Shown here piece after piece: positions 1-38,830 of a DNA stretch of 64,000 nucleotides. The first letter of the stretch is position 1, and each line of letters starts with the position of its first letter. This DNA comes from Rhea pennata (taxonomy: Eukaryota; Chordata; Aves; Rheiformes; Rheidae), in contig NC_084687.1 of NCBI RefSeq assembly GCF_028389875.1, positions 5,678,157 through 5,742,156 on the forward strand, read 5' to 3'. The notes beneath the pieces are model-generated. The model saw only the letters and a program-made list of their open reading frames with translations, ran no database searches and was not told where the DNA came from. The position numbers and the translations under genes are program-made.

Positions 1-3000
1 TAGGCTCTAATATAAACGAAGTATGTATAAAGACAGGCCAGTAATAATTAAAAAAAAAAAAAGAAGAAGAAAAAAAGGATGTAGACAGAAATAATAGAAT
101 TGCCTTTTATATCAGCTAGTCTGATATAATAACCATCACTTTGAGGCACAGAAACATTACATTAAAAAGTAATTTCCCATGGTATCTTATGGGATGGCCC
201 CATGTTTCTTCAAATGGCTCCACAGACTATTCTTCACCTGTCACGTATGGCCCCAGCATTTCCCAGGCAGCCCCAGGTGACACTTCCTCCCCATAGCCTA
301 CCTCCCTATTGGCCTGTCAGGCACACTGGTCTCCATCACTGGCCTTCTGGCCATCTTGAGGGGCATCAGAGGATCTACCTGAAGCTGTACCTACAAAAGC
401 AGCACTAACACGAACAGGACCACTGCATCTTCAGCCAGATATTTACCAGGGGTCAAGCATGCTGGTGTCCCCTCCCAGAAGTGTCCTGGGGTCCAAGCTG
501 TACAAGGTTTCGGCTCCTCTTACAGCAGATTTCATAGTTTTTGCTCTCACCTACTCTCAGCACAGCCATTCAGCAAAGACCTGGCCAGTAGGAGGTAAAG
601 TCCATGAATTTAAAGCAGATCAAGCTGTATTTTGGAAAGAAAGAAAAATCCCACAAGCTCACCTTGTAGTAATAGTTTTCACTTATACAATACTTCTCTT
701 TCAAAGTGCTCCATTTATGTTAGGAATATTTATGCCTGACTTTAACAGTGTTGGGAAACTGAAATATAAGTGGTCACATAAGTTGTTTAAAAAAAAAAAA
801 AAATCTTGCAACTTAAGTGTTTTACAGTTAAAAAGCATTAGTAGTGTGGGGAGAAGGAGATGAAAGAGTGAGAATAAGGACTTATATCCCAAGATATTTT
901 CTTTTCCCTTTTGGTGTCCTTGCTCAAAAAAGGTAGTAAATGGGAAAATATTCAAAAAGTCACTTAAGTGATATTAAAGGCACAAAAACCAGTTCTAGTT
1001 TAATGTGAATGAGACTGAAAGGACTTAAGTCACTTCAGAATATGACCTGAGGCAAAATAGTTCTGAGACAAATACTTCAATTCATCAGAAATGTTTAAAA
1101 GGGGAAATGTTTGTAACAAAGTTAACAGACCCTATTTATTGTTAAGGAAAACCACTAAATGAAAATGTTAACCAAAGTGTCCTCACAAAGCCAACTACTT
1201 AGTTAGAAATGCTAAGGAAATAAGATAATGTGACAACACAAAATGTTGTTGCTGCAAGTCTTATCTACTCAAAATGCAAACGTTATTCAATCTGAAAGGC
1301 AAGAGATTACTCAAGTAAATTATCGTTTTCCTTTCAAAATACTTAATTTCAAATTCTGTATAAAGCAAACCTTTGAATATAAAACAAAAAAGTTTTGAAG
1401 GGTAAATGAAATATTATGGAAGAGACATACAACAGGAAACACTCCTTTGACTTTGTTCAAGATTGCTTAAATTTGTTGCCTGTCAAAAAATCATGCAGGG
1501 GCAGGAGACCAAACTGAAACCACAGATTAAGGCCGAGGGCTGAATTTGACCTAAAGATTTTAATTCAGTATTCAGTTTAGAAAGGAGTTGTCCCTTACTG
1601 GTCTTTCTTTCATAGAGAATGAATTCTAAGCCTACCTACAGTGGAAGAAGCACTTCAACTTGATCTGTATCTACAGAAACAGGAGAGTGAAATTTTGTTT
1701 ATGTGTATATATAAAAATATATATAATACACACACATATATAACCATTTCCTGGTCTACATAAAGCTCTGACGCTGGAGATGTGTATTAGTCCAGGATGT
1801 GGTTATTACGAACTAACAAGCAGCACTCCCAGACCAAATATGAGTCAAACATGTATCAGGTTACAGATGTTTAGTGTTTTTAAAATCAACATATGAACAT
1901 AAGCACATGGAACAGATACCACGTTCTCCTTACTCTGTACACCCAGGATAGCCTTTTTACCAATACTACAGAAGCTTAACTTACTGGTGGCATCTTGGCT
2001 TGACTTACCATTTTGCACTTTCCAGAGACCCCAAATACGAATGAAATAATTAGATGGTTCTTTTTGTGTTCTGCTGCATCAAAACTGCACCTAAAAATAC
2101 CAGTTTTCAAATTTCAAGGAATTTTCTGGGTACTTTCAGGTTTCCTTCAACATGGAAGCAAGGAGGACAAGAACAGAACAGAAGCTTTTAAAAATCAATT
2201 CCTTCCCATTTAATGAAAAAAAAATCTTACTCTTTCAAGGTCACACCAACAGGGCCAAAGTATGCTGTACTGCAAGAAATGGATCTGGTCTTCAATTTCG
2301 CCTTTTGACTTTTTTCTGATCCTATAACTAAACACTACCAAAGAAATACAAACAGGATATTCCTGAGGCAAAATTCTGTTAATTTGAAACTGGACAGCTA
2401 GTATCAGATTCTTTGTCAGAGAAATATTATCCCTCTATTTTGCCAGCAGTCATCACAGCAGTTACAAAACTGTACACAGGCCCACACTTTCCAGATATGC
2501 ATCCATTAAATGCAACAACAACAAAAAAAATCATTCATTTCTGCTACCAATTCCCTGTGAACACATGGGAACTTTTAACTACACTGGCAGAGCATTTGCT
2601 AGAGAACTTTTGGATGAAAAGTGTTCAACATGTACAATAGCAATACTGGGGATAACAGCAGCCAAAGGCTGCATGTGGACTAATAGGACAAAGTGCAGTG
2701 ATAGATCAGTGGTAGGGTAAAGAAAAGTAGCTCTGAGAGTTCACAGATCTTAGTCTTGCATCATTTCTTAGACTAGAGTAGTATTCAATTTTGGGACAAA
2801 ACAAGTGCCGTACCTGCTAATTGCATCACTACTAATCAATTTTAAAACTGAAGCATTGCAACAGTACCTGAAAGTAACTTTGTATCTGTATCAGAGAGAG
2901 AATCCACGTCAAGACTGCAACACACAACTGCAGGTATCTCAGCCATGAGTTAGGAATACCTTTCAGGGTTAAGTGGCTGGCATGTTTGAAAAGGAAAGGG

Positions 3001-4640
3001 AGGAATGCTATAAGCTGTGCACTAAACCACTGAGCTCCAGAACTCTGGAGAACCACTTTTCATAGCAAAATCCTTATACCAAACACACAGAAGTTAAAGG
3101 ATCTGATTTTCCTCACACTATAGAATAAAATAAACACAGATCAAGCAAAGGTAACAGAATCTGCAGCCAGACACCAGTTTATAGCTGTCTGCAAGTATAC
3201 AGTATTGTTGTGGTGTTTGGCAACATACATGGCAGTTCACAACAGCATCTGAAAGCAGATATATTAACTACACTATGCTGCAACTGGGGGTAGGGGGAGA
3301 AACTCCTATATAAGCTCACATGAATGGGTTAGGCAAATGCGGTCTCCTATTCAATTGTACTTACCACCAAATGGCTCAGAGACCACTGTGTCCTTGTGGT
3401 TAAGTGGGTTGCTAAATCAGAACAAGTACAAGACATGTTGAAAGTGCTTGCTCAATAGAATTACAAGCGTTAAGTGCTTAAACTCTAACAAAATAAGATT
3501 CCAGAAGAAGCTTCACCCCAAATTCTAGCAGAAACAAATGCTTTCAGGTATTTACCTTAATAAAACAAAAATTTCAAGGCACAGATACACATTCATGAGC
3601 AAAACGCAAACAAGATCCAAGTTATCAAGGCAACAATGACAAAACATTGTTAGCTGACGCTTGTTAAGAACAGCCTTTAACAAAGTTCAAAGTTTTTTCC
3701 ATCTCGTCTCAAATGAGTACTCAAGCGTTACTACAATGCTACTCTAACTGTGATGGCTCAGGATATTCCGAGGGGAGGGGGGGAGTGGGACACATATTAC
3801 CAAGGTCCAGGCTCGCCCTCTGCTGCTCACAAGCAACATTTGCGCTCCATCGCTGCAACGTCACCTTGGCTCCATCATCCCACCAGGCAAGGGCCAAAGG
3901 TTGATGGATTATATAGCCCCAAGAACATCTGTGGAACTTCACAATGACCAAATGCTTTTTAAACATCTTAGCTGCTATAACTGTTATTACAGAAAACATA
4001 GAACAGACTGTAGGAAAAGTAAGTAGGACCTACCAAAAGAGATTTCTTAAAACACAAACTTGCTAGGCATGACAGCCTCTAGTGCATGTGATGGCACATC
4101 TAGAAAGGAATCAGTACAGCGGGTCAGTTTATTTGCATTTGAAATGACACCCACCTGAACAGTCAGTGTACACATTGGCTGAACCAGCTTATGAAACCAA
4201 AGATCGTGCTCTTTATTACCAAGATGACTTAATTCTTTAAATCTTTCCCATAACTGATAAGTAGTAATATTAAATCGTACTTGCCAAACTGCTCTGGCCA
4301 AAACCTGACTAGCTTCTTCAGGGAAAGCCTAAGGTCTAAAAAGGAATTAACTTCAAACCTAGGAGACATTGTAAAAGGTGAATAGTTTTACACTTTGCTA
4401 AAAGTAACAACACAAAGCAATCACAGAGTACCTTAAAATAGCAGAAAAATTACACAAGTCATGTTTATGGGTTATAAAAGCCCTTTTATAAAGCCATTTT
4501 TAAACAAAACCAAAAGTTTACAAAAGAAAATAAAAGATACAGAAGAATGAGTTGCTTAATATATTCCAAAAAGGAGAAAAATAAAAGAGGGGACACAATT
4601 CCAACATGCTGAACAATAAAGGGTTCTTTTCCTTGTGTGT

Positions 4641-10181: not shown

Positions 10182-10381
10182 TTAATCTTCACCAGAGGGT
10201 GCTTCATCTTCAGACCCCTCATCCCCTGACTTCTCTGGTGGAGGGCTGGCTGACTTCTTTTTTTCTGGGGGACTTTCAGGCTCTTCATCCTCTTCTTTGG
10301 GGGATGGGGTCTTCTCTTTTGTTGCCTTGGAAGCTGTAGGGCGGCCTGCCTTGCCTTTGCCTTTCACTGGACTGGGGGTCA
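10182..10381 (-). CDS. NUCKS1: NUCKS1 last coding exon
   Basis: 200 bases including TAA. The acceptor CTCTTTTTCAG is preceded by a long T run in the sense direction. Encodes residues 228-293: [18 protein letters not shown] (AT-hook-like GRP flanked by lysines, TPSP CDK site), then [20 protein letters not shown] and the acidic tail ending EAPSGED. Confidence 0.97.
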
Positions 10382-13300
10382 CTGAAAAAGAGGGAAAAAA
10401 AAAAAAAAAAAAAAAAACTTATAGAAGTTACGATCCGTTACAACGACAAAAGTTATACAGCTTTACACAAGCAGGATTTACACCCAAGTAGCGGGTTTCA
10501 TTTTGCTCTGACCATATTACTCACATAGCATTTCCTGCGTTCCATATTATCGAAGTTGAACTGAATGAAAACTGGTAACTAAAAACACTTTAATAATACT
10601 TATTTGTAAGTTGTGACTAATTATTGGGTACGACATCATTAACTACCAGAGCTAGCCTCTCATCAAACCAATACATATACTTTTACTACTATTCTAGACT
10701 TCCTGCAGAAGTACATCAAAACTTCCTTTGGTTTTTTCCACTTTCCACTATACTGAAAACATGCGATAGAGACAAGTCTGAAACAAAATTACGTTTTATG
10801 GTATTTGTATATGATACACAGAAAGCCAGACTGTACTGTCAGAGCACAGAAGTTGTACAATCTAACTAGTTTTGAGACACACAGTAATTCAATCTCTTCA
10901 TTAGCTAAGAATTACAGCCATTTTATTATTTCATAGGGTTGCTTTAATTCATTGCAAGTTACATGAACTAGTCCTTCAAAATTATGTGACTGCCTACTGG
11001 CCCCAAGATTTCCATCAAGTCTTATATGGCAGAAAAAGAAAATGCTAGTTTCTAAAGCAAACAGGCTAGTTTTCTTTTCATGGACGCACCTGTAGCCTTT
11101 AGCCTGGGCTTAGGCATTTTCTTTTCTTTCCTTTCTGGTTTGGACTTCTTGGACACCTTTTTATTTTTCTTTTTTGAACTGCCATAGTCACTATCATCAT
11201 CATCTTCCATGAGAAAATCTTCATCGCTTCCTGAATCTTCTGAAAGGACAAACAAATTAAGTTTGTGAAGAAAAGCTTTTCATTCATTTGAAAACAAGTA
11301 GAAGAAATATGGTTGAGGTATCTGCTAGGTAGATTGAGGAGACAAAAAATCAGGACTCTAACCTGGTAAGCTTCCACACAGATGCTGTACTAAGGAATTC
11401 TGATATATTCTGACAGATCTCATTGAAGAGATAAAATATTAGCATGATGAAATGTGTAACTGTTATGAGGTCCTCAAAAGATGTTCCAACTCCATACCAA
11501 ATATCCCATATCAAAATGAAGAGAATCTCTCACATAGAAAAAGTTAAGTAATCTTTGCAGTGGTATTCTTACTCCCTTCTGAAATCATGTTTGCATCCAC
11601 TATTTCAGGAACTTAACTGCAGTTCGTTAAGAGACTAAATCAGACCATTCTGCTTTGATCAGCCAGGTATAATGGGAACTTTCATGTGCCCTGAAAGTAG
11701 CATCAATGCCTCTGAACAGATGGGATGGCAAAAAACAACAAGAAACATTAAAAACTTTATAGGCAGCCCTAAAGGGGCATTGTGAAGACATTTACCTGCA
11801 CTCTAAACTTAGGACAAAAATTCTAGATGTGAAAGTGTAAGCTTACTCTGTTAGACAGATATGCTGTAATGAATTAGTTACCAAGAAGGACAACTTATGT
11901 CTGCACTGTCACATTCAAGATAGTGTTCCTTCTGCTGTTTGACCAGAAGCATTAATTCACACCTGGTACTATATAATTCAAGTCACACTGATTTTAACTT
12001 TTTGTTTCTGCCATACAACCCCATTTACTTACTTTCCTGGAACTGTGCCTCATCATCCTCCTGTTCTTCCTCCTCGCTACCAACATCATCCATAAGCATC
12101 TCTCGTTGTTTGGAAGCTGCTTTGGATGCTGCCTGTCGCTGCTGACGCACATTTTTGTGGTCTTCTTTCTCATCTTCGCTGTCCTCTGCGACAAAAAGAC
12201 ACCACATTATCATGAAGACACAGAATACAGGCCACTTAACTGTCTTGAGGTACTGAGCAGACAAAACAAAGATCAAGTCACACACAAAACAGTGAATCAA
12301 GATGACTTGAATAATTGAGTTGTGAGGAGAACACAATCATATTCAACCTAACAAGTGCGTTTCTGGAGTCACTCAGCATTGGACTTGTGCAGTGTCTTTC
12401 GCTGCAAAGACTAGCCACACTTATTGCCCTGTCATCAACCATTCTGCATACTATTATTCATGGAATAGCACTAAATCACTTCTGGTAAATACATATTTTG
12501 TTTCAGAAGTTAAATGTGAGGCATCATGAAGCAAGCTTAGAAGGGACAGCTACTACAACAAATCTAAAACACAGTAGTTTCTTACTGTGCAAACTGTAAC
12601 TTATCTGCAATGGTGAAGAACCGAAGAACTGCCAAAGTCTGTAGCTATGGTCAACTAGTAGTATTTTCTCCCTCTCCTACAGTTTAAGAAACTTGCTGAA
12701 TTACATACCACTTTGATCCATTCTACTTTGTACTTTATAAAATCTGTGCAATGAGTGAAATGCATACACAGTACAGAACTACTGCAACACAATATAGGAA
12801 CTGAATATATCAGTCAATATTCATACATACTGAATACTGTACTTTATCATAACAGACTTTCTAAACAAACAAACAAACAAACAACAAAATCAACACACTT
12901 GTTTCTTCACCTGCTGGCCTCTTCCTGGATTTGGAAGCTCTCTTATTCTTTTCTGGTTTAGCTTTTTTTCCTTTTTTGCTTTTTTGAGAGCTCTCATAGT
13001 CACTGTCAGCTTTGCCATCATCTGCTCCTAAGTCGTCATCTTCACTACCAAAATCTTCATCTGGAAAGAAAAGGTGAGATAAATGAAGTTTCTTCACTAC
13101 CACTCAGTTAAACATATGGATGAGAATAACAGGGAAGAGATTAACAACCTGTGAAGACTAAGCTTGTAGCAGTATCATATTAGCAAAAAGCATCTGATAT
13201 CCCAAACTAGGGCTGGAAGTAAAAGCAGGAAAAACAGCATCCAAGTTAGATATAAGCATATTAGAAAAGTGCATGGTTTTCTAATCAACACCATTTTTGT

Positions 13301-16300
13301 CCTATGCTAAGTCCTACTCCTGCAACTTTCTTGCAAATTGGTATTAATTTTGAAGTTACGCTAGCAGTGCAACGTTGTTAGTTACCTGGAGAATGTGAAT
13401 CATCTTTCTTCGTCTTCACATCTTTTTCTTCTGAATCCTCACTGAAAAGGAGAGAAAGAGGGTCTGCTTCTGTTTAAACTCTGATTCCAAACAATACTAT
13501 ACGAAAGCAATATCAATTTTCAGTGAATGAACTGATTTCTGGGCCACGAAAATATGTGCTTTTTTTGGAGACTGGCACTTTATACTCAGAAATATATGTA
13601 GTTATTATGGCTGAAAAGGTAATTTTCAAACTCTGAATCAAGCATAAATTTACATGACTGTCAAGTGAGCCAATCCAGAAACAACAAAGAACCAATCTGG
13701 AAACAAGACTGAGATGAACTATGTATTTTATTCTGAAAATAACAATCATCTAGACACCTTCCATTTTACAGTTAGGATTTCGAAGTTTTATATACTAATT
13801 TGTGGCTGAGTATATAAACATAATACATTTTATTCGGAATGAATGTATAGAGTTACTACTACTCTACTAGTCAGAACTAGCACTGTAGCACAGTTAATGA
13901 AGCTCTGAAATGGTGAGAGCTCTGATGGAGTTTCCCCACTCAGCTCTAGCAGTGCCTGTTTCAATTCTCAGAGTGAATCTCTGTTAGGGAGGCTGACTCT
14001 GTTCTCTGACTACTGTTTCTGTTCTTATCCACATCCCTCAGTTTTCATTACCAATGTCAAAATTATCAGGCAGAGAAGGACCTCCTTCCAGCATTTAAGA
14101 ACATGCATTCCAGCCAATGATTAAACAAGTGTTTGAGGGAGGAATGGTGAATACTCTACTGAAGGTCATTGATGCACAACATATGTTTCAGGAATGGTTG
14201 AGCTGCAGATTTCACCAAAGGTCAGGAAATATGATAGACCAAAGCCTTGCTACTTTCAAGTTTGGTAGTCAGAACTGACACACAACATATCTCTAGAACT
14301 TTTAATAGTTTAGATAACTTATAATATCACAGCTCATCAGGCCCACTTGTTTTCAGTCTTATGTTTGTTATATCAAACAACTATGTATTTCAATTACTTG
14401 AATACACGTCTGTTTCACGTGCAAGCCCTGTGCAATGTTCAACAGAAATGCTCTTACACACTTAAAAATCCACAAAGTTAAAGGGACTTCAAGATCAATC
14501 ATTCAGTTGCTTTGGGAGCTGCTCAGCCCCGATTTATTTATGTAATATCACATCTGTAAAACAACAGTTTTTGAATTCAGCTGCTATCCACATTTGCAAG
14601 CTCTTCTCTGGCAGTTTGATCTCCAGAATTTCTCTAAGCATTGTAAGAGCAAAACACTTAGTGCTGAGCATATTATTGTAGCAGTTTGCCTGGGCCATCC
14701 CAAATCTGTTAAGCAATGGATGAACTAGATTTATCCAGAAGAAATACAAGTAGATGTCTGAAGTATTTGCATAACACTACCTTTGCATTAAATTCCTATT
14801 CACCCTTTGTGTCAAAATAGTGCAACATAAATTGGGAGGCAACAGGAAGAAAGGAGTTCTCTCCTTAAACTTTTACAATATTAAAAAAAAAAAAAAAAAG
14901 CCCACACCCTTGTATCTCTAGGACAGTTAAAAGCCAGGGTGAAAATTGTCTTGCCCTCTCACTTCACAATAGCAGGCCAACCGTTCAAATATTCCCATGT
15001 CTATATTCAACTTTTACCTTACAGCACAAAAACATAAGGAAGGAGTCTTCTTAAGCACATTCTGCTGGTAAGTTAACTACACTCTACCAAACAGTGCAAG
15101 AGAGCTAACCTTAAGCTTATATCATAAGAATCAGCTGGAAGAATCTCCATCCCTAAAGTTGATTTCTGTCACAAAAGCAGTCAACTGATTTAATAGTTTT
15201 TTTTTTTTTTTTTTTTTTTTAACCATGTTACTTACGGTAATCTTACATTGATGATAGATATATTATGAAAAGCAGGATACCTTCATTCTACAAAAAAATA
15301 CATTTACTATTCTAAAGGGCATTACTGAGTCCTTTCATGCTGGTATAACAACTCAGTTATTAGAATAAGCTACTTCCTTTCTAAATTAAGACAAAATAGG
15401 AAATTAAAACAAACAAACAAAAAAATCTACAAAACTAACAAATCATCCCTACTACTACTGCCTGTGTATTGTCCCAAATAGTTGTTATCCTCAAGAATGG
15501 TCTGAGCACACTGAACAACCATGCAGAATGAAATGCATCAAGCCACTAACTTACCTGTATAATTGCACTGGTTGCTGAGTTTTGTAACTTTATCACATTC
15601 TTTCCCATTGCAACTAACTGTCTAACTCTGGAAGTTGTTTTAATGCTGAAGTGACAATATTTTACACATGATTTCCCTGAATCATGTGTAAAATATTGTA
15701 TATCCTTTGAATAAGACCATATCAACATCCAAGCTGGTAATGAAAGCTTTGTGAGTGAGAGTTCTACATCTAGAACTGCAGACTTTGCATTCCACTTACA
15801 ATCATTCTTCTGAGAAGATTCTGCTCCCCACATACAGAAGTAAGTTTGTAGACACGCAGATCTCATCCTTCATACTAATCTGAATTCTGACAACTTCCTT
15901 CCAGATGAGCTACTTCCATGCAGTTTTGAATAAGCCCCAACTATTGGTCCAAGAGAAATACAGCATAATGCCTAGAACCACAAGTTCTGTTACACAGCAC
16001 AGAGCCATGCTCCCTCAACTGTTCAAAGGAATTCACCTATTATGCACAACAGATAGCAAGCCATTTCTGCACTTGCACAATCTTTCTGCATGAATTCTCC
16101 CTGTCAGGCAATCTAGAACAGAATTCTGCAGAATTTTTTTCCTTAATCAAATTTGTACACCAACTGGAAGCAAACTGATGCCTGAAAGATGACTGACTGT
16201 AAAACAAAGAAAGCTCTTACAGAAAAAAAACTTGACAAGTTAAATGCTTAAAACTGGTGACTGAATTCACACTTTAAGCAGCAAACATACTTTAAAAAAG

Positions 16301-19300
16301 TCTCTATCTACATCAAGATCAGTATGGGCAGGATATATAGTGTATGCTCCTACTTGAGAATACTGAAAGGTGAGACTCTAAAAAGGTGGCCAAATAACCA
16401 AGATAGATATGATACGAGATTACAAGATAAAGTTGCTAGCAATTTAAGTGCTAACACCAAGGTTCACAGCATTACAACAAAGACCTCAGTACATTACAAA
16501 CGCATCAATGCAAAGACTAGGCAAGCTCAGATACAAAATACAGGGCCTTCTCATGGTTACAATTACTTCACATTTTCTAACATGCTATGAGAATACAGTA
16601 AGGAATACAGTTAAGAAAGCTGCAGTGCAAATAAGTGAATGGTCTTCATGCCAATAATTTAAGGGGGGATTTTTGATTGTTTTGTAGGGTTAAGTTTTTA
16701 AACAGATTAAGTATGTATTTTACCTGTCCTCCTGAGAATTCTTCCCAGATCGCCTCTTATTTTTAGCTTCCCGGGGAGACGAACGGATTTTCTTGGATGG
16801 GGGACCTGAATCTCTTCCGTAATCTTCATCTGGACAGGACAGTGCAAAATGGTTTTGAATCAAACTCCTAGTTCCCAGCAAACTGACTACCAGCTCCACA
16901 GCAAACTGACTTCCTCAGCTGTATCTTAAAATGACCATTTCAGATACATCAGAAGGAAGCCCTCTAAATATCTCAAAGCTTCAAACAAAACTTTGTAACA
17001 GTAAAGTCTTGTCTTAAACCAATTAACTTACATTTTCAACTGCCAACAGCACAATATAACATACAATCGAGTTTGACACAGGAGTATTAAAAAAAAATAC
17101 ATCAAGCTTCATGAGAGGAAATATCTTTACAGCTAGTCAGAAACACACACAGTTATTAAGCAAATTTATTAAAAATTAACATTCATATACAGCTCTATGT
17201 CCTTAACAGCAAAAACTTTATTTACTGTCCTACGATGGACAAAATATATTATTATATAGTAATCTACAGTGTAACTTTTTACAATCGTTACACAATACCT
17301 TATAGAATGAGTAATAGGACTGCAGTTAAGAGTTATGCATACTTGTTTCCATTAATTAGCAGTGCAGTCTCATTTAGCAAACAGTAGCAGCATGTCTATT
17401 TTCTAAGAACACAAAACATACTCCATATGGCTTCCAGAAATATTTAGTTAATTCACACAGAATATGAAGATGTTTTAGATCTAATTCACAGAAAAGCCTG
17501 ACATTATGGGATTAACTAGGGTCCACTAAAATAAATTGACAATACATTTTACTGTAGGAAAAAAAAAGTGGGATCAGGGAGATTTTGCCGTAGAACATAA
17601 AGACCAAGGAAGAAGACAGTTACTGCCAACAGCCTAAAGGCACTACAACAATACAAGCATTAAATAAGATTTCTATCACCATTGTTTAATATAAAACATC
17701 TGGGAATCATTACATTTTCAAATGTTTAATAACAGTTCAGAGACTGTGAAGAGCAGAAGGGCCTTAGAGTTTAGGTTAAACATATGACTAGAAGCAAAGC
17801 AATTAATATGCAAAATAATAACTGGTGTATCTCAAGAATATTATATTGCTAAGAACAAAATGTTTTACCAGCATCATCCGATTCCTGAAACTGTGAGTAA
17901 TCGACCACCTTCCTGTTCCTGTTAAAAAGGGGGAAAATTAGCAATCCATGATCTCAGAGATGCAAAACTTTCTTTAGCCAACAAGAAAGTACCATATATT
18001 CATTTCTAGTGCAGGATTTGTAGTTTAGAATAAAAAAAGTCACACACACCCTCAAACATCCCAAGAAACCTTTCATAAATAAGTCACCTGTATCTTCAAA
18101 GTCAGCAATGAGCACAGATGCTAGTATATTCTAGCATCTCCTTAGAGAGTCGTCATAATAGCCTGGATTATAATCTCACAATCTGTAGGTACTTTTTGAT
18201 GAGCAGAACTCTTTTATGGCTCACAGAGTTAGGAAGAGCCACCTTAACTTGTACCATGCAGCTCTTTCACTATTAAAACCATATAAATTGTGGTAGCTGA
18301 ACATGTAACAAGGGTACGATTACTGATGGCAGTATTTAAATGCAGTGCTGGCATTCTAAGATTAAAGATGGATTTAAAGATACTAAGCTATTTTATTACT
18401 TAAGGTGTGATTCTTTTTTCTTCCTTTTTAAATAGGCTGAATCTTTGAAAGCCAGACCTCTTCCTGACAAACAGTCTCAAAGCTGGAATATTTAAGAATA
18501 CAATTCCAGGTACAAAACAGACAGGTGAATTTAATACGCCCACAACATTTTAAATATATTCCTAATATTAACCACACTTGTTTACATGTTTTCTGTATGG
18601 TACGCGTTATTCTTCACATAACATCAGCCCGTGCCAATACACAGGCCAGTAAGGGATAATCACAATACACTACTGAATAAAAAGCAAAGCAGCTTCATAT
18701 GCAAATATCATAGTTGCGGGTTTTTTTGGAATCAGTGATACCTTCCAGACCAAATTACTGGAGGATCTTTCAGAATGATTTAGAAAGGATTTATGTCTCC
18801 TTCCTGTATCTCTGCAAAAAGACTTCAAATTTTAAATAACCTTCAGTGATTTTAAAAATGATACCCTTGAAGTAAAAATCTAAACATTAAACTTCTTGTA
18901 GTAATGGCTGAAATTGTTGGTTTGAACTCATTAACTCTTTAAACTAATTAAATAATAATTTGGGAAGAGTGTACTAAAATGTTTTCAAATATCATTACAA
19001 ATTCAAGAAACCATTTCCTAACTACTTTCTGAGTGGAGAAGGACAGGGAGAGGAACTCTGCTTTTTAAAGCTCAATATAACCTTGCTTATTCTCATACCT
19101 CCCCCTCCAGATATTTGCTTCCCCTGTGTTCCCTCCTACAACATGAGAGGTTTTCAACACTTGCCACCAGGGTATTCTGTGGTACTTTGTCAGTTAATTA
19201 CTTAGGTTCTCTAATGCAATTTAAGAGAGAATTATGATGATTAGCTGCATTATTTGACAAAACAACAGGAAAAGCTATGTATTTTATGCACCCTATATAT

Positions 19301-24500: not shown

Positions 24501-26498
24501 GACTTTGGCATTGAATTTTGCTGTAGACTAGTACATATCAGTTGTAGGTATGACAAGTCAGGTGTTTCACAACACTGTCTGATCTTCTAGATATTATTTT
24601 AGTTTAGAAATTGTTGCTTACTAAGTTAATTAATACCAGAAACTTTAGAAACTGTACTTTTAAAGATATAACACTTTCCTTACCTGTAGTAAGGCTCCAG
24701 TGCTGGCAAGTATATTGCCAGCAGAACGTACACTGAAGTGTCACACTGAGCAGCAAAGTCACATCATCACTGTATTCCAGAACACAGATACTGTCATTCA
24801 AGATCAGACCACTAGTCCGATATCCTGCCTTGCAAAGGGCCAAAAACTGATGCTTCAGGGCAGGGTATACATAGTCCTATCAATGCACCTTTTGGACCCC
24901 AGACAATTCCCTAAGATTGGAACTTAGATTTATTTACTCACACCTCTGCATGGAGGAAATAAGTATATTACCGATCAAAAAAGAGCCACAGTGTTTCCTC
25001 TCTAATTAGCAAAGTAGTCCTAAACTAACTTTTAAAAAAACCCTATTTTGCATTGAAGACATTACTTAAAATACAAAGGTCATCAACTGTGACGTTTTAT
25101 ACTCAAAGTTAATTTCGTATGTATTATCCTAAAATAAATATATTTATTACATAATCTAAATCAATCTAATTACCTAAAATATCTTGAAAATTATTAAGTT
25201 CCAGAACAAAGTATACATTATGAAGCATCTTACCTTTTCTACAAAGAAAAAATAAATCACAAGTTCACACTATTTGAGTGCTTTGCAGAGAGATGTAAAA
25301 AATGAAAATCCTGTAGACAAGCTATCAAAAACATGGAGAAGTTCTGTACACTGTGCATTTTCAAAATTAACATAATTCTGCAAAATAGGTGAGGTCTCCC
25401 TGAAGCTCCATGCTCCTGATTCAATGCTGTTTCGTAAGACACAAGCACCACGACCTACCTCCTTTACTGCTGGGGAGAATACAGCCCGTGTAGCTAAACG
25501 GCCCGCTATATCCTCCTCCCCAAGCTCACGGTTTAACATCAGGCGTCTCGTGGGGAGAGGGGCAGACCACCAGTAGGAAACCGACTCGGGAGAGAGCAGT
25601 TAGTTTAAGGCGAAAGGAAAAGGGCGTGTGTTCAATGCTGTTCCCACCAGAGGGGGCGGCTCCTCCTAACTCCTCCCCTAAACGTGGTTTAACTTGTATG
25701 CACATCCCCTCGCCTCCAAACCCTCGCTGGTCACGGCGTATTGCACGCCTGTCCCCTCCCCCTCCCCAAAACCGTGCAGCATGGTCTGCTTTTTTTCTGC
25801 CGTTTCAGCCCCTCGCTTGAAAAAGCGTGCACGGAGCTATGGCAGGGGCCTGCTTCCACTACAAGAAACGCGAAAATCGCGTTACATCCGTGCACTCTGC
25901 ATGTTCCCTGCCCAAAGTGGGTCATGGCAAATCGCAAATATCCACTTTTCCCATCGCAAAATATGGGACGCAGCTCGCCGTACGCGGCCTCTCCAGGCCT
26001 TATCTCCACAAGTGCGCAGCAAAACGCGCTGACGCCTCCTTTCTCCCCCAGTAAGCGTGGGGCAATACATATTACCCTGCACTAGGCGTGCTGCATGCTC
26101 GCACCACCCTCTCAAGGAAAAAAAAATAAAAAGAAAATAAAAAACCCCCACAGAAAACAGCCCATGCTGCATTCGCGCAGCTTCCCTCCCCCCGAGGACG
26201 CGCACACGCGCTCCTCCTCACGGCCATGCAGCAGCCCCGGGGCCGTGCGCGGAGCCCTGCCGCACGGCTGCCCTCCAGCGAGCGTGCAGCCTCCCCGCCC
26301 CCGCGCCCCACGGCGGCCCGGCCCGCGCTGCCCACGGCCCGCGGCGAGGCCTGCTCCAGGGCGCTGGGAGGGCCTAGCGCCGGCGGCCGCGGCGGGGGCC
26401 GGGCTCGGCAGGACGCAGCGCTGGCGCCGCGGGTGGGAGGGGAGGCGGGAGCGAGGCCTCCACGAGCTGCCAAGGACTCACCTGACAGGCCTGGACAT
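10182..26498 (-). CDS. NUCKS1: NUCKS1, nuclear casein kinase and cyclin-dependent kinase substrate 1 (8 coding exons, 293 aa)
   Basis: Nuclear, highly phosphorylated, intrinsically disordered DNA-binding protein; the family acts in chromatin access, cell-cycle transcription and homologous recombination and is a paralogue of RAD51AP1. Coding exons in order of transcription: 26498-26482, 17918-17869, 16829-16724, 13441-13386, 13060-12911, 12185-12033, 11239-11090, 10381-10182; the sum is 882 bases, in frame, ending in TAA. Recognised by the N-terminal motif [14 protein letters not shown] (residues 3-16), CK2-type acidic runs, CDK-type sites (TPSP at 229-232, TPSPK in the tail), the AT-hook-like GRP at 240-242 and the C-terminus EAPSGED. 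The human protein is 243 residues as I recall it; the extra 50 residues here (77-126) are one additional exon. The start ATG has A at -3 and lies in a CpG island. Function is inferred from the family. Confidence 0.96.
11090..11239 (-). CDS. NUCKS1: NUCKS1 coding exon 7
   Basis: 150 bases, phase 1 at both ends, acceptor TGTCCTTTCAG, donor ACAG|GTGCGT. Encodes residues 178-228: [18 protein letters not shown], then a lysine-rich block with [10 protein letters not shown] and PKPRLKAT. This exon has a clear human counterpart and is the likely source of the duplicated exon 5. Confidence 0.96.
12033..12185 (-). CDS. NUCKS1: NUCKS1 coding exon 6
   Basis: 153 bases, phase 1 at both ends, acceptor TTTTTGTCGCAG, donor GAAA|GTAAGT. 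Encodes residues 127-178, including [20 protein letters not shown], the [10 protein letters not shown] segment that is also recognisable in RAD51AP1, and a long acidic run ending in AQFQE. Confidence 0.96.
12863..12882 (+). repeat. (AAAC)n microsatellite
   Basis: Five tandem AAAC units in the NUCKS1 intron between coding exons 5 and 6, about 30 bases past the donor of the duplicated exon. Confidence 0.85.
12911..13060 (-). CDS. NUCKS1: NUCKS1 coding exon 5: extra, internally duplicated 50-codon cassette
   Basis: Exactly 150 bases, phase 1 at both ends, acceptor TTCTTTCCAG, donor CAG|GTGAAG. Encodes residues 77-126: an acidic half ([19 protein letters not shown]), then SDYESS and a lysine-rich half containing KAKPEKNKR. 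It resembles coding exon 7, which has the same length and phase and the same order DEDF, DSDY-SS, lysine run, KPE. The recalled human protein has nothing at this point: its HSAEDSED matches exon 4 joined straight to exon 6. Being symmetrical, it can be skipped without a frameshift. Confidence 0.9.
13386..13441 (-). CDS. NUCKS1: NUCKS1 coding exon 4
   Basis: 56 bases, acceptor CCTTTTCAG, donor CCAG|GTAAC. Encodes residues 58-77, with [18 protein letters not shown]: acidic CK2-type serines beside a lysine patch. Leaves in phase 1, so it can join in frame to either the next exon (13060) or the one after it (12185). Confidence 0.94.
15197..15220 (+). repeat. T homopolymer, 24 bases
   Basis: Uninterrupted T run in NUCKS1 intron 3. 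Confidence 0.9.
15654..15699. repeat. Perfect inverted repeat: 20-bp arms, 6-base loop
   Basis: Left arm 15654-15673 reads ACAATATTTTACACATGATT; right arm 15680-15699 is its exact reverse complement; loop TCCCTG. It sits mid-intron in NUCKS1. Either strand would fold into an uninterrupted 20-bp stem. Confidence 0.97.
16724..16829 (-). CDS. NUCKS1: NUCKS1 coding exon 3
   Basis: 106 bases, acceptor TCCTGTCCAG, donor CAG|GTAAAA. Encodes residues 23-58 with [10 protein letters not shown] and the basic stretch [19 protein letters not shown], which includes a proline-directed SP phosphosite and is a likely nuclear-localisation and DNA-contact segment. Confidence 0.95.
16830..17868 (-). other. NUCKS1 intron 2
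   Basis: About 1.04 kb, AT-rich, consensus ends. Nothing further recognised. Confidence 0.8.
17869..17918 (-). CDS. NUCKS1: NUCKS1 coding exon 2
   Basis: 50 bases, acceptor TTTTTAACAG, donor G|GTAAAA. Encodes residues 6-23, including [14 protein letters not shown], the most conserved block shared with RAD51AP1. Enters in phase 2 and leaves in phase 1. Confidence 0.95.
21550..21579 (+). repeat. A homopolymer, 30 bases
   Basis: Uninterrupted A run in NUCKS1 intron 1. No retroposed sequence was recognised upstream of it. Confidence 0.9.
22024..22085 (+). mobile_element. CR1 LINE fragment, 3' end
   Basis: The segment GAGGTCCCTTCCAACCTCAA followed by CTTCTATGACTTTGTGAT matches the well-known 3' end of avian/reptilian CR1 elements, including the short terminal repeat of the TTCTATGATTCTGTGAT type. 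Only about 60 bases remain; there is no ORF. It is heavily 5' truncated, as is usual for CR1. Confidence 0.85.
26482..26498 (-). CDS. NUCKS1: NUCKS1 coding exon 1 (17 coding bases)
   Basis: Encodes MSRPV plus the first two bases of Arg6, then a consensus donor AG|GTGAGT. Too short to form an ORF and found by looking for the conserved N-terminus. The rest of the first exon is 5' UTR, running up towards about 26.8 kb inside the CpG island. Confidence 0.93.
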
Positions 26499-32474: not shown

Positions 32475-35400
32475 CTAGAAAAGAAATATACATTTTTTTT
32501 TGAACAAGCAACATTGTGCTACACAGTTCTGAAGCAGTACAAAAGAGAAGTAATGATTCATTCTAGAAGGATAAAAAGCTCCAGAACTTTGACTAAACAA
32601 TCAGGCTAGAGAATCTCATAGGCACTGCCAGTAGCATTACTGCCATTACTGCTATTATCTGGCAGCATCAGAAGACACTGCAATGACACTATTACAAAGT
32701 CTGCTGCAACAACTTCACCTTGGGTCCAGTTAAGGACTGGGTCACAGCAACAGGCTTCCTACCAGATGTTAAGATAAGGTGTCAATTCCCACACTACAGT
32801 CTGATACCTTTCAGAGAAGGCCAAATTCTGCATTAAAGGTTTGATACATTACACAAGAATTTCTAATCTCTTTACAGAAGAAGTCCCATCCTCCTAGTAG
32901 AGGCCTGCATATGAAAAAACATCCATGGTATTGTTTAGAGAATTTGTTTCCAAAAGCATGTTTCCCCTTAACTAAGGAGAGAAGAACTTCTGACCTTTCA
33001 GAATTCAGTTTCCCTTTAGGAGATCTACTTGCATGTTATTGCTGCTATTTGTTACTAACTGACAGCATCTTCCCTCACCTCGAAGATGGTGATGTCTAAA
33101 AGAGGGAATTAACTCTTCAGATGTATCACAAATCACTGCACTTACCTCATAGACTCATTAATATTCTTGTTTTCCTTGACAGATGTTTCCACCCAACCAG
33201 AAAAGCCATTTTCTTTGCTGAACCGATCCACTTCTTCTCTTGTCACTGCCCATGGGGAAAGGTCACACTGTAAAACAAGAGTCAGTCATTTTAAGTTTAA
33301 CCTTTTAATTTTTAAGCTGGGAGGGGAATTCTTCCCCTCACCCATTTACTGCTTGTGTTTAGGCAGCAACTAGGCTTGGCCCCTCACATCTCCAAGATCG
33401 CAGTCTGATAGAGAGTTCTTAGGGCAAGGTTCTTAATGGGATGTTGCAAGCAGCAATATATTTATCTAATCTGAGATACAGACACACCTCAGTCAAGCAC
33501 GCGTGGAATTGAGGTTCATCCAGAACAGGACAAAAAAGCATTGTCATTCATCCAGAATTTGCCAGGCCTATCAGTAGCAAGGAAATTTTACTGATGTAGT
33601 GCCACTGAAGCAATCACACTGATGGCAGCAGGAAGTATGAAAAGGCAGCGAGGAAACCTGTCCAATAAGAGCTTGTATTTGTGTGATTACATTACTTTAA
33701 TGACATACACAGAGATCTCCTTAATGCAGGCAAGAATGTTACTTGAAAAATGCTATTGGGGGAAAGCATTCTTCCTGAACAAGCGAAGAAGCAGGAAAGC
33801 CATTTTCCTGCCCACCCATCAAGTTTTTGGTTGATTTCCAACTTTAGGCTCCTTCAAACAAGGCAAGTCTCAAACTGAATCTGGAAAGGGCTGTTGAACC
33901 AATGTTGACACATGTAGCACATAAACGTAGTTTTTAAATTAAAGAAAAATAAATCATTAAAGACAGTAAGCAATCTACACAGTGAAACTTGACATTGCGT
34001 CGAAAAGTAGACATCCCTCGGGCAGCTCTGAAAAGGAGAGGCTTTACCTGCCATATCATACCAAACCTTCCCAGTCTACTGCAAGTTAAAGACGTTAAAG
34101 ACAAAGACAAAAAAAAAAAAAAAAACCCACACATCTCTCTCTTTCCATTTTTCTCTCCCTTCATGGTTGTAAAAGTATGGTAATGTATGTATATACACAT
34201 AAACAGACATGCAAGCACACTCAGTACATCTAGAGTGTCTCACTTTATTAGCCAGCAGTAGGCAAGGCACAGGGTTCCCATCTGGCAGCGTGAGTTTGCT
34301 GTCCAAATCCTGCTTCCACTTTTGGCTGTTGCTGAACGTGCTGATGTTAGTGACATCAAACATGATAATGCAGGCTGACGCCTCCCTGTAGTACAGCCGG
34401 GTCATAGATGTGAAGCGTTCCTGCCCTTGAGGTGAAAAAAGGAAAACCTTTTTTCAGTTATCTTGTTAGACCTGATCACCCAGAAATCATGCCCATGATA
34501 ATGTCCACTGAGAAAATGAGGTACCAACTGTCCCCTTAATTAAGGGGGAAACAGAGGCATTAAGACACATTCTGCCTTGCGCACCTCAGCACTGCAGTGA
34601 TAGATGGAACAAATGGGAGTTCTTAATACCGACCCAGACTCTCAGATGTCCCTGAAATACTTGCATCACTCCCAGTGCAACAATTTAAATTAAGCATCCT
34701 TTCCCCAACCACAGTTTTATCTCCTGTACAGCAAAACCCTACTAACAGCAGTGTGTCTTGCCACTAAGCACAACCATCAGTAAAGTTCTAGGAGGGTTTT
34801 TTCAGTCACTATCGATACATGCTGCTGAGTGCTTGGTGGAGACACAGCAATACAAATACAGCCTCTCAGAAGAAAAAAAGTTTGATATTAAGGAAAAAAA
34901 AAAAAAAAAACTAAAACTCACATAGGCTGTTATTATTATTTAAACCTTACAGCCTGTTGGTACTACCAAAACTGTATCCAGGGAGTAACCCCACCATGCT
35001 GCTATATGGCTTTATTATGCTTGTTTTGATGGGGACAAACCACAAAATGTTCACATCACATTACACGGGTCAGCAGCACAGTGAAAACTGGCATTTCTGA
35101 CATTGCATAGACATCAGCGTGAGCTCTGACATAGATCTGTTGCTGGTCAACAGGCTTTATTTTCTGAACAGATCACAAATTAAGCACTCTAAGTTACCTC
35201 AAACTATCTGTGTCCCTTTCAGGTGGGAAGAGCAGTGAGGAAGGGACTATCTTGTGTGCACGTCCCCTTCAGCTCAGGGCATGTCAAGAGTGCTGTGACA
35301 AATATGGCCACTCTGCCTTTCAGATCTTAAACGTCTTTTTGGTCTGAAATCGAAATCAGTTTCTTGCTGCAATCCTCTTGCTGCAAACTTCTCCTTCCTG

Positions 35401-38400
35401 TTTTCTTTTTAGAGATTCCAGACTTGCACGTCTGAACAGTGAAACCAGAAGAAGCCACAACTCTGTTTTCCTCTCTACTCTAGATCCAGAGGTGCCATTT
35501 TAGAGATCTATCTGTCCTTTGTCTTCTGGTGATAAGAAAATTCAGGAACAGAACGGTTTTGTGCTTTTCTAAGCAGCAGATGCTATTCAGTCCACTTCAC
35601 TGCCTAATACGGTCCCCCAGAACGTGCCCCATTCCTGACCCAGGCCCACCACCTCCGGGGCATGTAACAGTGTCCTGTTTCCATGACTGCTGCTTGCCGA
35701 CCTCTCCAGCGCTGATGTGGACGGTTGTTCCCTAGGAAACCACCAACTCTGCTCACACAGGTCACTGAGCAGCCAGATAGCAACTTGCAAGACCCAGTTC
35801 TGATCCCAGCAGCAAGACCAGATTGAATTCAATGGAAGTACTCCAAGTTTAGACACAAGAATCAGGCCTTCCTGGCTATCATGCCAGAAAGCAGTATTTT
35901 AACAGAAGACTTAGAGCTGAGAAGTTATATATCCAGTTACAAATCATCCCATCTCCCCACTCAGTCTGCTCTGGCTTTGAAATTGAAAAGAAAGGCTCCA
36001 TAGAATTTATCATTTGTGTTGCTGTGTTCTTTGCAGATGAGCTTTTGATTAAATATTTAAATCACCACTGCAAACTAGAAGAACATCACAAAGCAGAACA
36101 ATCTTGTCCCTTGATTTCACAGATTTTTAGGGTTTATTTTCATATCAGACTCCTACTGGGGAGGATGGCGGGGGGGGGGGGGGAAGAGATTGAGAGAGAG
36201 AGAGACAGACAAACAAGACAGACAGAAGAGGGCCAAGCAGTTCAGAGAGCTATAAATTATGCTCCTGAACAGCTCTGTGGTTCATCTGAACATACCTGCA
36301 ATGTCCCAGAGCTGGAGTCGTACCGTCTCCGATTCTGACCACTGCACCACCTTCAGAGCAAAATCCACTAGAAAATCACCCCCCCACAAAAGGAAATCCA
36401 ATTAGAAACATTGGACTTGTTTCTCAATATTTCCCCAGAGGGGCAGGCATAGGGCATCGTAGCAACTGCTGTCACAGCAATGGCAATTTGCATTGGACCA
36501 CTACCCATACAAACACAGAACAGATAAGGGCCTGGAGAGACTGCAAGCACTGTCCCCTCTCCTCCATCACAGACAGCTGCAAAGCAAGTGTTAAATCCAG
36601 AAGGCTCCACACACTGTCTGCTATACTCCCTGGGTGCTCAAAGAGAATGATCACAGGTACACAAAATGCCCTTGGAAAAGAGGAAATCAAGGGCATTATC
36701 CGCATCCCATTCCTGCACAAGGATGCTACACTTTGCTTTTTCTTTCTTGAACTTTAGATTAGAAGTGCTTTAGGTGGAGTTAAATTACACAATAGAGCAG
36801 CATTCCCTGTCTTGCAAAGCCCAACCAACCTGCTGTCAAAGTCCTCACAAATGGCAGCAGAGCAACATGGCATTTTCCAGCAAATGCAGCACCAGGCAGC
36901 CAGTGTGCTACCCCAAAAGGCAGGACTTTTTGGAATCAGACACTGCCACCACCAGGGTTCGTAAGGATCCCACCTACAGCTTCCAGTCTGCAGAAGATAT
37001 CCATTCTTGATCCTTGGGGTGTTGCATTGACACTGTAGCAACACTAACCAAGAGCTAAGGCCAGAAAGAAAAAAAGTTCGGGAAATAAGAACTCCTCCAG
37101 CACATAGGCCTGAATAACCACAACACTAACAAAAGGCTACTGGAAACCTTATCGCTTGGAGAGTTTTAAGGAAACCTTCCCTCACCCAGCTCTGCTTCAG
37201 TTAAGTGCTGTTGGGGTCATGCCTTTTGTTCTTTAAATCCACAGTTTAAACAGCAGGCCAGAGAACTGGATCTTCTCAGTTAGGGTTAATAATGCACAAA
37301 GGCAGAGTTTAAAGTAAAAAGGTCAGAGCTAATCATGCTCATGCCTCCTTTTACAATTCATAATCCTAGTGGAAACTCAGAAAAATGCCAAATAAAATGC
37401 TGGATTTGCTGTTGTTGCCTGTCTTTGTCCTGCACTGCCTAAACCGTTTAGTCACTGGTAGATGGAGCACAGTGTTTCCTTTCACATTTACCACTTCCCA
37501 TCATCTATAATTCAACTGTAACAAATGCACAGGGAGTAGAAAAGAAAAACACTGCATTTTTTTCAGAAGATTACGATACATGAAGTTTTCATTGCAGGAG
37601 GAAAACTGTCCAGCTAAGCTGTCATCTGTGCTCAATAGGCCTGGAACTTTTTGAATGTAGGAACAGATTTAAAAAAGATTAAAACAACAAAAAGCAAAAT
37701 CTGCAGCTCTTACTGCAGTGAATGATTGCATGCTCTGCCTCCAGTATGCTAGGTCCTCAGAGAGATATGCTGAGTAGGGCCTTGGCACCTCCTGCTCTTT
37801 TGGGTCATTCACTAACACTAGTGTTAAAGAAAAAAAAATACCTTCTACTTAAGCCTTGTCCCAAGACCACTTTGTTATAAAGCTATTCTTTATCTTCTTT
37901 CCAATCACCTGTTTTACAACAGAGCTCATATTCAGCAACATGAAATCACTACTAAAGTAAATGTCAGAGCAATGCTGTTCTGATTTTCACCAGCAAGATC
38001 TAGGGCTATAGTCTCATCCTCCAGGTGAGGACTCAGCAGGGTGTCTGCTGTGCAGGGACGAGGGACGGGCACCCAGGTCCCTCCCCAAAGAGTCAGCGCA
38101 GTTCATCAGGGGCCTTACTGAGCGGGGGCACATCAGGAGCTGCATCTGAGAGCTGCTGCACGAGTTGCCAAATACGGTAATTACAGGCTGATGACTGTTC
38201 ATTTCACAAATTACTGCAAGGTTTTTATACCTGCAGGGAAGGACAGGAGCAAGTTTCCCACTAGAGCCTGCGAGCAAGGGATGCTTGACAGCACCAAGCG
38301 CAACAGCTGAGCGCGGCCCCCGCCGCGCTCCGCGGCACGGGACAAACCGGCGAGGAGCCGGCAGAGGCACCCCCGGGAGGCGAGCGGGGAAGCCGCCAGC

Positions 38401-38609
38401 CTCCCGCAGCAGCGGCGCGGGGCCGCGGGCAGAGAGCCGCGGCCAGAGCCGGCCCCGGCGGGGCAGCGCCGCGCTCCCCGCTCACCTCCCACCGTGGACT
38501 TGTAGTGCCGGTTGAAGCTGTCGTTGGCGTAGCGCTGCACCAGCGACGTCTTCCCCACCGTGGCGTCGCCCACCACCAGCACCTTGAACATGCGGTCCCG
38601 GTGCCCCAT
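32357..38609 (-). CDS. RAB29: RAB29 (RAB7L1), Rab GTPase (5 coding exons, 205 aa)
   Basis: Small GTPase of the RAB32/38/29 group. It acts at the trans-Golgi and on stressed lysosomes, where it recruits and activates LRRK2 and supports retromer traffic. Exons: 38609-38486, 36367-36296, 34425-34244, 33267-33146, 32474-32357; 618 bases in frame, TAG stop. Visible GTPase boxes: P-loop GDATVGKTS (14-22), switch II WDIAGQE (62-68), NKCD (125-128) and ETSVK (153-157). The LRRK2 target residues Thr71-Ser72 (FTS) are kept. It ends in Cys-Cys for double geranylgeranylation. Human RAB29 is 203 residues. The start has G at -3 and +4. The tail between residues 174 and 190 is Ser/Gly-rich and diverged from the human tail as I recall it. 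Confidence 0.97.
33146..33267 (-). CDS. RAB29: RAB29 coding exon 4
   Basis: 122 bases, acceptor TTGTTTTACAG, donor ATGAG|GTAAGT. Encodes residues 127-167: CDLSPWAVTREEVDRFSKEN, GFSGWVETSVKENKNINESM. Phase 0 in, phase 2 out. Confidence 0.96.
34244..34425 (-). CDS. RAB29: RAB29 coding exon 3
   Basis: 182 bases, acceptor TTTCACCTCAAG, donor AAA|GTGAGA. Encodes residues 66-126: GQERFTSMTRLYYREASAC with catalytic Gln67 and Thr71-Ser72, then FDVTNISTFSNSQKWKQDLD and PCLLLANK, the start of the guanine-specificity box. Confidence 0.97.
36170..36206 (+). repeat. G14 run followed by GA-rich repeat
   Basis: Fourteen G followed by AAGAGATTGAGAGAGAGAGA, a purine-rich simple repeat in RAB29 intron 2. Confidence 0.85.
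36296..36367 (-). CDS. RAB29: RAB29 coding exon 2
   Basis: 72 bases, acceptor GATTTTCTAG, donor GCAG|GTATGT. Encodes residues 42-66: VDFALKVVQWSESETVRLQL and WDIA, up to the first base of switch II Gly66. Confidence 0.96.
38486..38609 (-). CDS. RAB29: RAB29 coding exon 1
   Basis: Encodes residues 1-42: MGHRDRMFKVLVVGDATVGK with the P-loop, then SLVQRYANDSF and the switch I side HYKSTVG. Donor GGAG|GTGAGC, phase 1. Confidence 0.97.
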
Positions 38610-38619
38610 GCCGCGGCGC

Positions 38620-38660
38620 GGCCCGGCGCGGCCCGGCCCGGCCCGGCCCGGCCCGGCGCC
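38620..38660. repeat. Tandem 5-base GGCCC repeat
   Basis: About seven GCCCG/GCGCG units in a row between the E-box and the RAB29 start codon; very likely within the 5' UTR or at the TSS. Confidence 0.8.
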
Positions 38661-38670
38661 GTCACGTGAG
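38661..38670. promoter_or_regulatory. CLEAR-type E-box GTCACGTGAG, RAB29 promoter
   Basis: Matches nine of ten bases of the palindromic CLEAR element GTCACGTGAC bound by TFEB/TFE3/MITF, and is also a canonical E-box for USF or MYC/MAX. Which factor uses it cannot be told from sequence. Confidence 0.65.
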
Positions 38671-38830
38671 GGTCAGGCGGCTGCAGCGGCGGAACCGCTG
38701 CCGGCGCGGGGCTGCCGGGACGTGTAGTCCGCGCCGCCTCCTGCCCCCCGGAGCCGCCTCCTGCCCCTCCCGGCCCCTGCCCGCCGGCCCGGGGCTCTCC
38801 CCGCCGCAGCGAGGGCGTTGCAAGTCCCTC

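Follow-up and report, generated by a model that had tools for sequence, protein, structure and literature searches.

An additional in-frame exon in a bird NUCKS1 gene and its plausible origin as a diverged duplicate of exon 7

The NUCKS1 gene of this bird genome carries an additional exon of 150 nt (exon 5), which is open in the frame required by its neighbours, is bordered by splice sites comparable to theirs, and almost certainly represents a spliced coding exon. The first-pass annotation had reported this exon at 12911-13060 together with its likeness to exon 7 at 11090-11239, and the observation is confirmed as regards the existence of the exon and the coordinates (exact), lengths (both 150 nt) and phases (both 1-1) of the pair. 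On balance, we favour a reading in which exon 5 is genuine, probably constitutive, and a duplicate of exon 7 that arose after the split between NUCKS1 and RAD51AP1, adding a second disordered acidic/basic module to this DNA-repair protein.

The analysed window (i.e. the whole 64-kb stretch of DNA, contained in a 1.27-Gb assembly of 180 contigs) holds NUCKS1 on the minus strand, as eight coding exons that run from 26498 to 10182 with phases that are consistent throughout:

26482..26498, minus strand: coding part of NUCKS1 exon 1, from the ATG to CAG/GTGAGT, encoding MSRPV and a split codon; placed by pattern match in a GC-rich stretch, in a frame that suits exon 2
17869..17918, minus strand: exon 2, 50 nt, phase 2-1
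16724..16829, minus strand: exon 3, 106 nt, phase 1-2, with a DEDYG start at the exon border
13386..13441, minus strand: exon 4, 56 nt, phase 2-1, joining exon 5 (or exon 6 if exon 5 is skipped)
12911..13060, minus strand: exon 5, the additional one; 150 nt, phase 1-1, encoding residues 77-126 of the 293-residue product
12033..12185, minus strand: exon 6, 153 nt, phase 1-1, with an 11-residue segment common to RAD51AP1
11090..11239, minus strand: exon 7, presumed parent or sister of exon 5; 150 nt, phase 1-1, encoding residues 178-227
10182..10381, minus strand: coding part of exon 8, with the GRP DNA-binding motif and the stop

The spliced product has 293 residues and, when exon 5 is left out, 243. 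Compared with human NUCKS1 (UniProt Q9H1E3), the form that skips exon 5 has the same residue at 229 of 243 positions and aligns throughout without a gap, so that the extra 50 residues form a single clean insert, placed between exons 4 and 6; in other words, the human protein is the same protein minus the 50 residues of exon 5. This full-length match to the human reference, collinear apart from the insert, and the GRP motif at residue 240 (encoded by exon 8) identify the gene as the NUCKS1 orthologue. The first-pass statement that the product exceeds the human protein by exactly 50 residues holds, as a passage of PMC11313516 gives the human length as 243 residues; the same source, in the part available, reports that human NUCKS1 is predicted to be fully disordered. 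Within intron 3 of the bird gene lies a perfect inverted repeat of 20 bp, whose arms enclose a loop of 6 nt (15654-15699), possibly the remnant of a small transposon. Beside NUCKS1, and also on the minus strand, we observed two Ras-family open reading frames (34076-34453 and 38211-38672) and one of MgtE type (50107-50673), all identified by their domains only, which fit the gene order NUCKS1-RAB29-SLC41A1 that we assume for human.

Several properties of exon 5 are those of a coding exon. It is bordered by a CAG acceptor after a pyrimidine tract and by a donor reading CAG/GTGAAG, which rank 4th of the 7 acceptors and 3rd of the 6 donors scored in NUCKS1 (position-weight scores), and only one of its three frames is open, which is the one imposed by exon 4; canonical splice sites are in this way combined with an open frame in the phase that is needed. 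When both strands of the 64 kb were scanned for segments of 60-300 nt, with a length divisible by three, an open 1-1 frame and both site scores at least equal to those of exon 5, exon 5 alone was returned, a result that is partly circular since the thresholds were its own scores (the genuine exon 7, with its weaker acceptor, fails the same scan). A chance open stretch, i.e. a pseudo-exon absent from the mRNA, is in our judgement very improbable: 49 open codons would arise with a probability of 3.9 per cent at the intronic stop frequency, which counts in its favour, but such an origin also demands that both splice sites be good, that the phase fit at either end and that the composition be NUCKS1-like. 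From these properties we infer that exon 5 is transcribed. A search of the genome with the whole of NUCKS1 gave 9 matches at E <=10 (54 candidates scored), namely seven exons of NUCKS1 itself, one exon of RAD51AP1 and a further, weak match interrupted by a stop (E 5.5); among these 9 there was no processed NUCKS1 retrocopy that could serve as fossil evidence of splicing. Five peptides of exon 5, searched as text, occurred in no paper, and the passages of the literature on NUCKS1 that we consulted are without this exon; bird gene predictions may already include it. In sum, the exon is genuine, and as a departure from a known gene it is modest.

With regard to the origin of the exon, both exon 5 and exon 7 encode an acidic front and a basic rear (exon 5: 25 residues of net charge -11, then 25 of net charge +12; exon 7: 22 of net charge -9, then 28 of net charge +13). 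Exon 5 was compared with exons 3, 4, 6, 7 and 8 against half-shuffles, a null that keeps the order of acidic front and basic rear. The local score with exon 7 was reached in 34 and 30 of 5000 such shuffles and the end-free global score in 12 and 3 of 5000, and the remaining partners (exons 3, 4, 6 and 8) gave z values of at most 1.15. The likeness to exon 7 persisted when residues were shuffled within blocks of 12 (score reached in 14-35 of 4000) or of 8 (22-45 of 4000), although the choice of the best of five partners weakens all these values by about that factor. Moreover, in a six-frame search of the window without composition adjustment the best match of exon 5, other than itself, was exon 7 (37.7 bits; next 23.9). 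Exon 3, also considered as a source, stood out in a plain composition shuffle (82 of 5000, z 2.67) but not in the half-shuffle (z 0.75-1.15), and was discarded.

The claimed resemblance of exon 5 to exon 7 is upheld by the half- and block shuffles; the finer claim, that the two exons present the same modules in the same order beginning with DEDF, is weakened as regards the pairing of the two DEDF motifs. Two alignments are available, one that pairs DEDF with DEDF at the cost of an 8-residue gap and one that pairs the exon starts and needs small indels only, and as they score about equally (37.7 vs 37.0 bits) the DEDF pairing is insecure. End to end, the two exons have the same total length and differ by small indels only, which renders the equal length of 150 nt neutral to mildly supportive of a duplication; we had entertained the view that this length is a pure coincidence and dropped it on account of that alignment. 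Exons 3 and 5 open with DEDYG (16829) and DEDFG (13060), respectively, exactly at the exon border, and the corresponding third segment of RAD51AP1 also bears DEDF; these starts may reflect chance or be a trace of common exon starts.

Searches of other kinds gave a less favourable picture. Composition-adjusted BLASTP found no significant match between exon 5 and exon 7 (E 12-15), and in each of the three adjusted modes RAD51AP1 ranked above exon 7, as did exon 3 in two of them. With phmmer (filters off), exon 5 found exon 7 at E 0.074 (search space of 177,635 sequences), and the reversed search found exon 5 at E 0.9 only. With default filters, exon 5 matched 0 of the 177,635 PDB sequences at E <=10, a comparison of limited weight since exon 7, used as a query in its turn, missed human RAD51AP1, which is present in that library, so that the search is of modest sensitivity. 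In the whole genome at E <=10, exon 5 recovered itself alone (3 candidates scored), and exon 7 recovered itself and the RAD51AP1 exon without exon 5 (4 candidates scored).

The paralogue RAD51AP1 offers an external point of comparison. Human RAD51AP1 (PDB 9qn8_B) matches the NUCKS1 residues of exons 1-3 and 6-7, and with a human query we located the gene in the same genome at C1:83360000-83378000, where it contains an exon of the exon 7 type (C1:83369191-83369346, 52 residues, acidic then basic, phase 1-1 by reading). This exon resembles NUCKS1 exon 7 (half-shuffle z 5.2-5.9), whereas its protein score with exon 5 is no better than that of half-shuffles (reached in 1568-3058 of 5000). In the 18 kb of the RAD51AP1 locus, searched without composition adjustment, the best match of exon 5 was the same exon (23.9 bits; next 20.8), and no separate counterpart of exon 5 was found there, the best matches being this exon and the DEDF-bearing third segment. 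RAD51AP1 is thus akin to NUCKS1 in the residues of exons 1-3 and 6-7 and in the phase 1-1 exon, and differs from it in that no distinct counterpart of exon 5 was seen in the 18-kb locus. As the RAD51AP1 exon resembles exon 7 and not exon 5, any origin of exon 5 from exon 7 is more likely to have taken place within NUCKS1. An origin of exon 5 from the RAD51AP1 exon itself was considered and rejected, the protein signal not exceeding half-shuffles and the DNA signal being weak (alignment score reached in 72 and 132 of 2000 codon half-shuffles, as compared to 20-24 of 2000 for exon 5 with exon 7). As a separate observation, the RAD51AP1 exon appears to end in a GC donor (CAG/GCAAGT), i.e. to be followed by a GC-AG intron.

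At the DNA level, the words shared by exons 5 and 7, to which the first-pass annotation had drawn attention, are present and do not constitute independent evidence, because the shared residues account for them: among the 25 identical residues 15 codons are identical, as compared to 13.0 expected from the codon usage of the genes themselves (P 0.26), which gives no sign of residual DNA likeness between the two exons beyond the shared residues. The flanking introns of the two exons are weakly alike (P 0.06-0.07). An old copy of exon 7 would likewise be expected to lack residual DNA likeness. Where the residues are identical, 12 of 20 twofold degenerate codons agree overall and 10 of 13 within securely anchored motifs. 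Under neutral rates, an age of 25 My falls below the best log-likelihood by 1.1-2.5 on the 13 anchored positions and by 7-12 on all 20; on all positions the fit keeps improving with older dates, and on the anchored ones it peaks at 75-150 My and declines by up to 1.3 log units for very old dates. A very young copy (25 My or younger) is disfavoured by these codons. Furthermore, exon 7 differs from human NUCKS1 at 2 of 50 residues, which makes identity of only about half the residues less likely (if still conceivable) for a young copy, since a very fast phase of change would be required.

We consider that exon 5 is probably homologous to exon 7, and that the intragenic duplication proposed in the first pass is plausible, moderately supported and contested: exon 7 exceeds order-preserving shuffles and is the best unadjusted match of exon 5 in the window, but under composition-adjusted BLASTP it is non-significant and stands below RAD51AP1. 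The alternative is that exon 5 is real and no duplicate, having arisen by independent exonization or slow drift and having converged on exon 7 through compositional demand. Acidic/lysine-rich disordered segments are common in chromatin proteins, and the non-significant BLASTP result, the reverse phmmer value and the chance-level codon identity all accord with such convergence; we nevertheless hold it to be somewhat unlikely, in view of a likeness that persists under 12- and 8-residue block shuffles, that is not seen with exons 3, 4, 6 and 8 under the half-shuffle, and that is accompanied by the same phase class and by equal total length with small indels only. Intragenic (tandem) exon duplication is a known process (Kondrashov and Koonin 2001, as cited in PMC2592719), and the duplication envisaged here resembles it in that a phase-symmetrical exon would have been copied inside one gene; it departs from it in that the NUCKS1 copy sits beyond exon 6, is very diverged and shows nothing pointing to alternative use.

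That the exon predates the bird lineage and was lost in mammals is a serious possibility which, in our estimation, falls just short of probable: the twofold codons disfavour a copy of 25 My or younger, and the near-identity of exon 7 to its human counterpart would oblige a young, half-identical copy to have passed through a very fast phase, but the anchored positions favour 75-150 My over very old dates. No relatives of exon 5 or of exons 6-8 were found in the collections of prokaryote and viral contigs that were searched, as expected of such collections. A more far-reaching version, which we regard as doubtful, is that exon 7 was copied early in vertebrates and the copy deleted in mammals, so that birds, and perhaps other vertebrates, would possess a second DNA/nucleosome patch of the RAD51AP1 type, as well as an extra SQ and an extra CK2 site, in homologous recombination.

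The manner in which exon 5 is spliced may be approached through its splice sites and the following element of intron 5:

12863..12888, minus strand: (GTTT)n array in intron 5, 22 to 47 nt downstream of the exon 5 donor in transcript sense

Inclusion of exon 5 is probably constitutive, as its splice sites are not weak. The first pass had put forward skipping of the exon, and in this form exon 5 would be a regulated cassette giving a long (293-residue) and a human-length (243-residue) protein of differing DNA affinity. The frame does permit the 243-residue product, and the existence of two isoforms is a possibility that we deem unlikely. The 1-1 symmetry of the exon, whose skipping restores the human junction, is compatible with a cassette and says little about skipping, since exons 6 and 7 are likewise symmetrical; the GTTT array beyond the donor is also compatible with it, but the middle ranks of the acceptor and the donor stand against it. 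It is possible that the length of the array differs among individuals and affects the splicing of exon 5. According to a passage of PMC2592719, splice-site strength alone does not account for inclusion.

As for the function of exon 5, we favour a scheme in which exon 7 would have been copied within NUCKS1 after the separation from RAD51AP1 and would then have diverged to about half identity, with the result that a second disordered module was inserted between exons 4 and 6. The basic tail of exon 5 may touch DNA or nucleosomes at an additional point, as the corresponding lysine patch of RAD51AP1 does, and its acidic half, with two CK2-type sites and together with one SQ site, may tune this contact by way of phosphorylation. 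The motifs in question (CK2-type SEDD and SDYE, one SQ and two K-[KR]-x-[KR] stretches) are present in exon 5, and such motifs are frequent and do not amount to proof. If the isoform 2 numbering of RAD51AP1 is converted to that of isoform 1 by a shift of 17 residues, as we assume, each of K231/K232/K234/K236 and K283/K284/K286/W287 corresponds to a K or W of the human sequence, and this agreement places the first four lysines in the exon of the exon 7 type. K or R occupies three of the four places in exon 5, in exon 7 and in the RAD51AP1 exon of the same genome (alignments, by reading). In passages of PMC8233230, the same four lysines (isoform 2 numbering) are counted with the residues that are critical for binding to DNA and nucleosomes, and they belong there to a bipartite C-terminal domain with affinity for DNA and the nucleosome core. 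On the grounds that lysine/arginine places of exon 5 align with these binding lysines, the most likely contribution of exon 5 would be a second DNA/nucleosome contact. The suggestion that exon 5 doubles a DNA-contact module stands as far as this analogy with RAD51AP1 carries it and is qualified by the GRP motif of NUCKS1, mutation of which abolishes DNA binding according to a passage of PMC8630071 and which is located outside exon 7, in exon 8. A passage of PMC4181878 furthermore ascribes two nuclear localization signals to NUCKS1.

NUCKS1 is a recombination and chromatin factor, and the literature passages that we consulted treat the human or the mouse protein. The reach of the present finding is that of one exon in one gene. 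Should exon 5 be ancient, work on mammalian NUCKS1 would miss the second patch and the extra sites. If other vertebrates also have the second acidic/basic module, mammalian NUCKS1 would be a reduced form, and the comparison between the 243- and the 293-residue proteins would then constitute a natural experiment on the role of this module in DNA and nucleosome binding.
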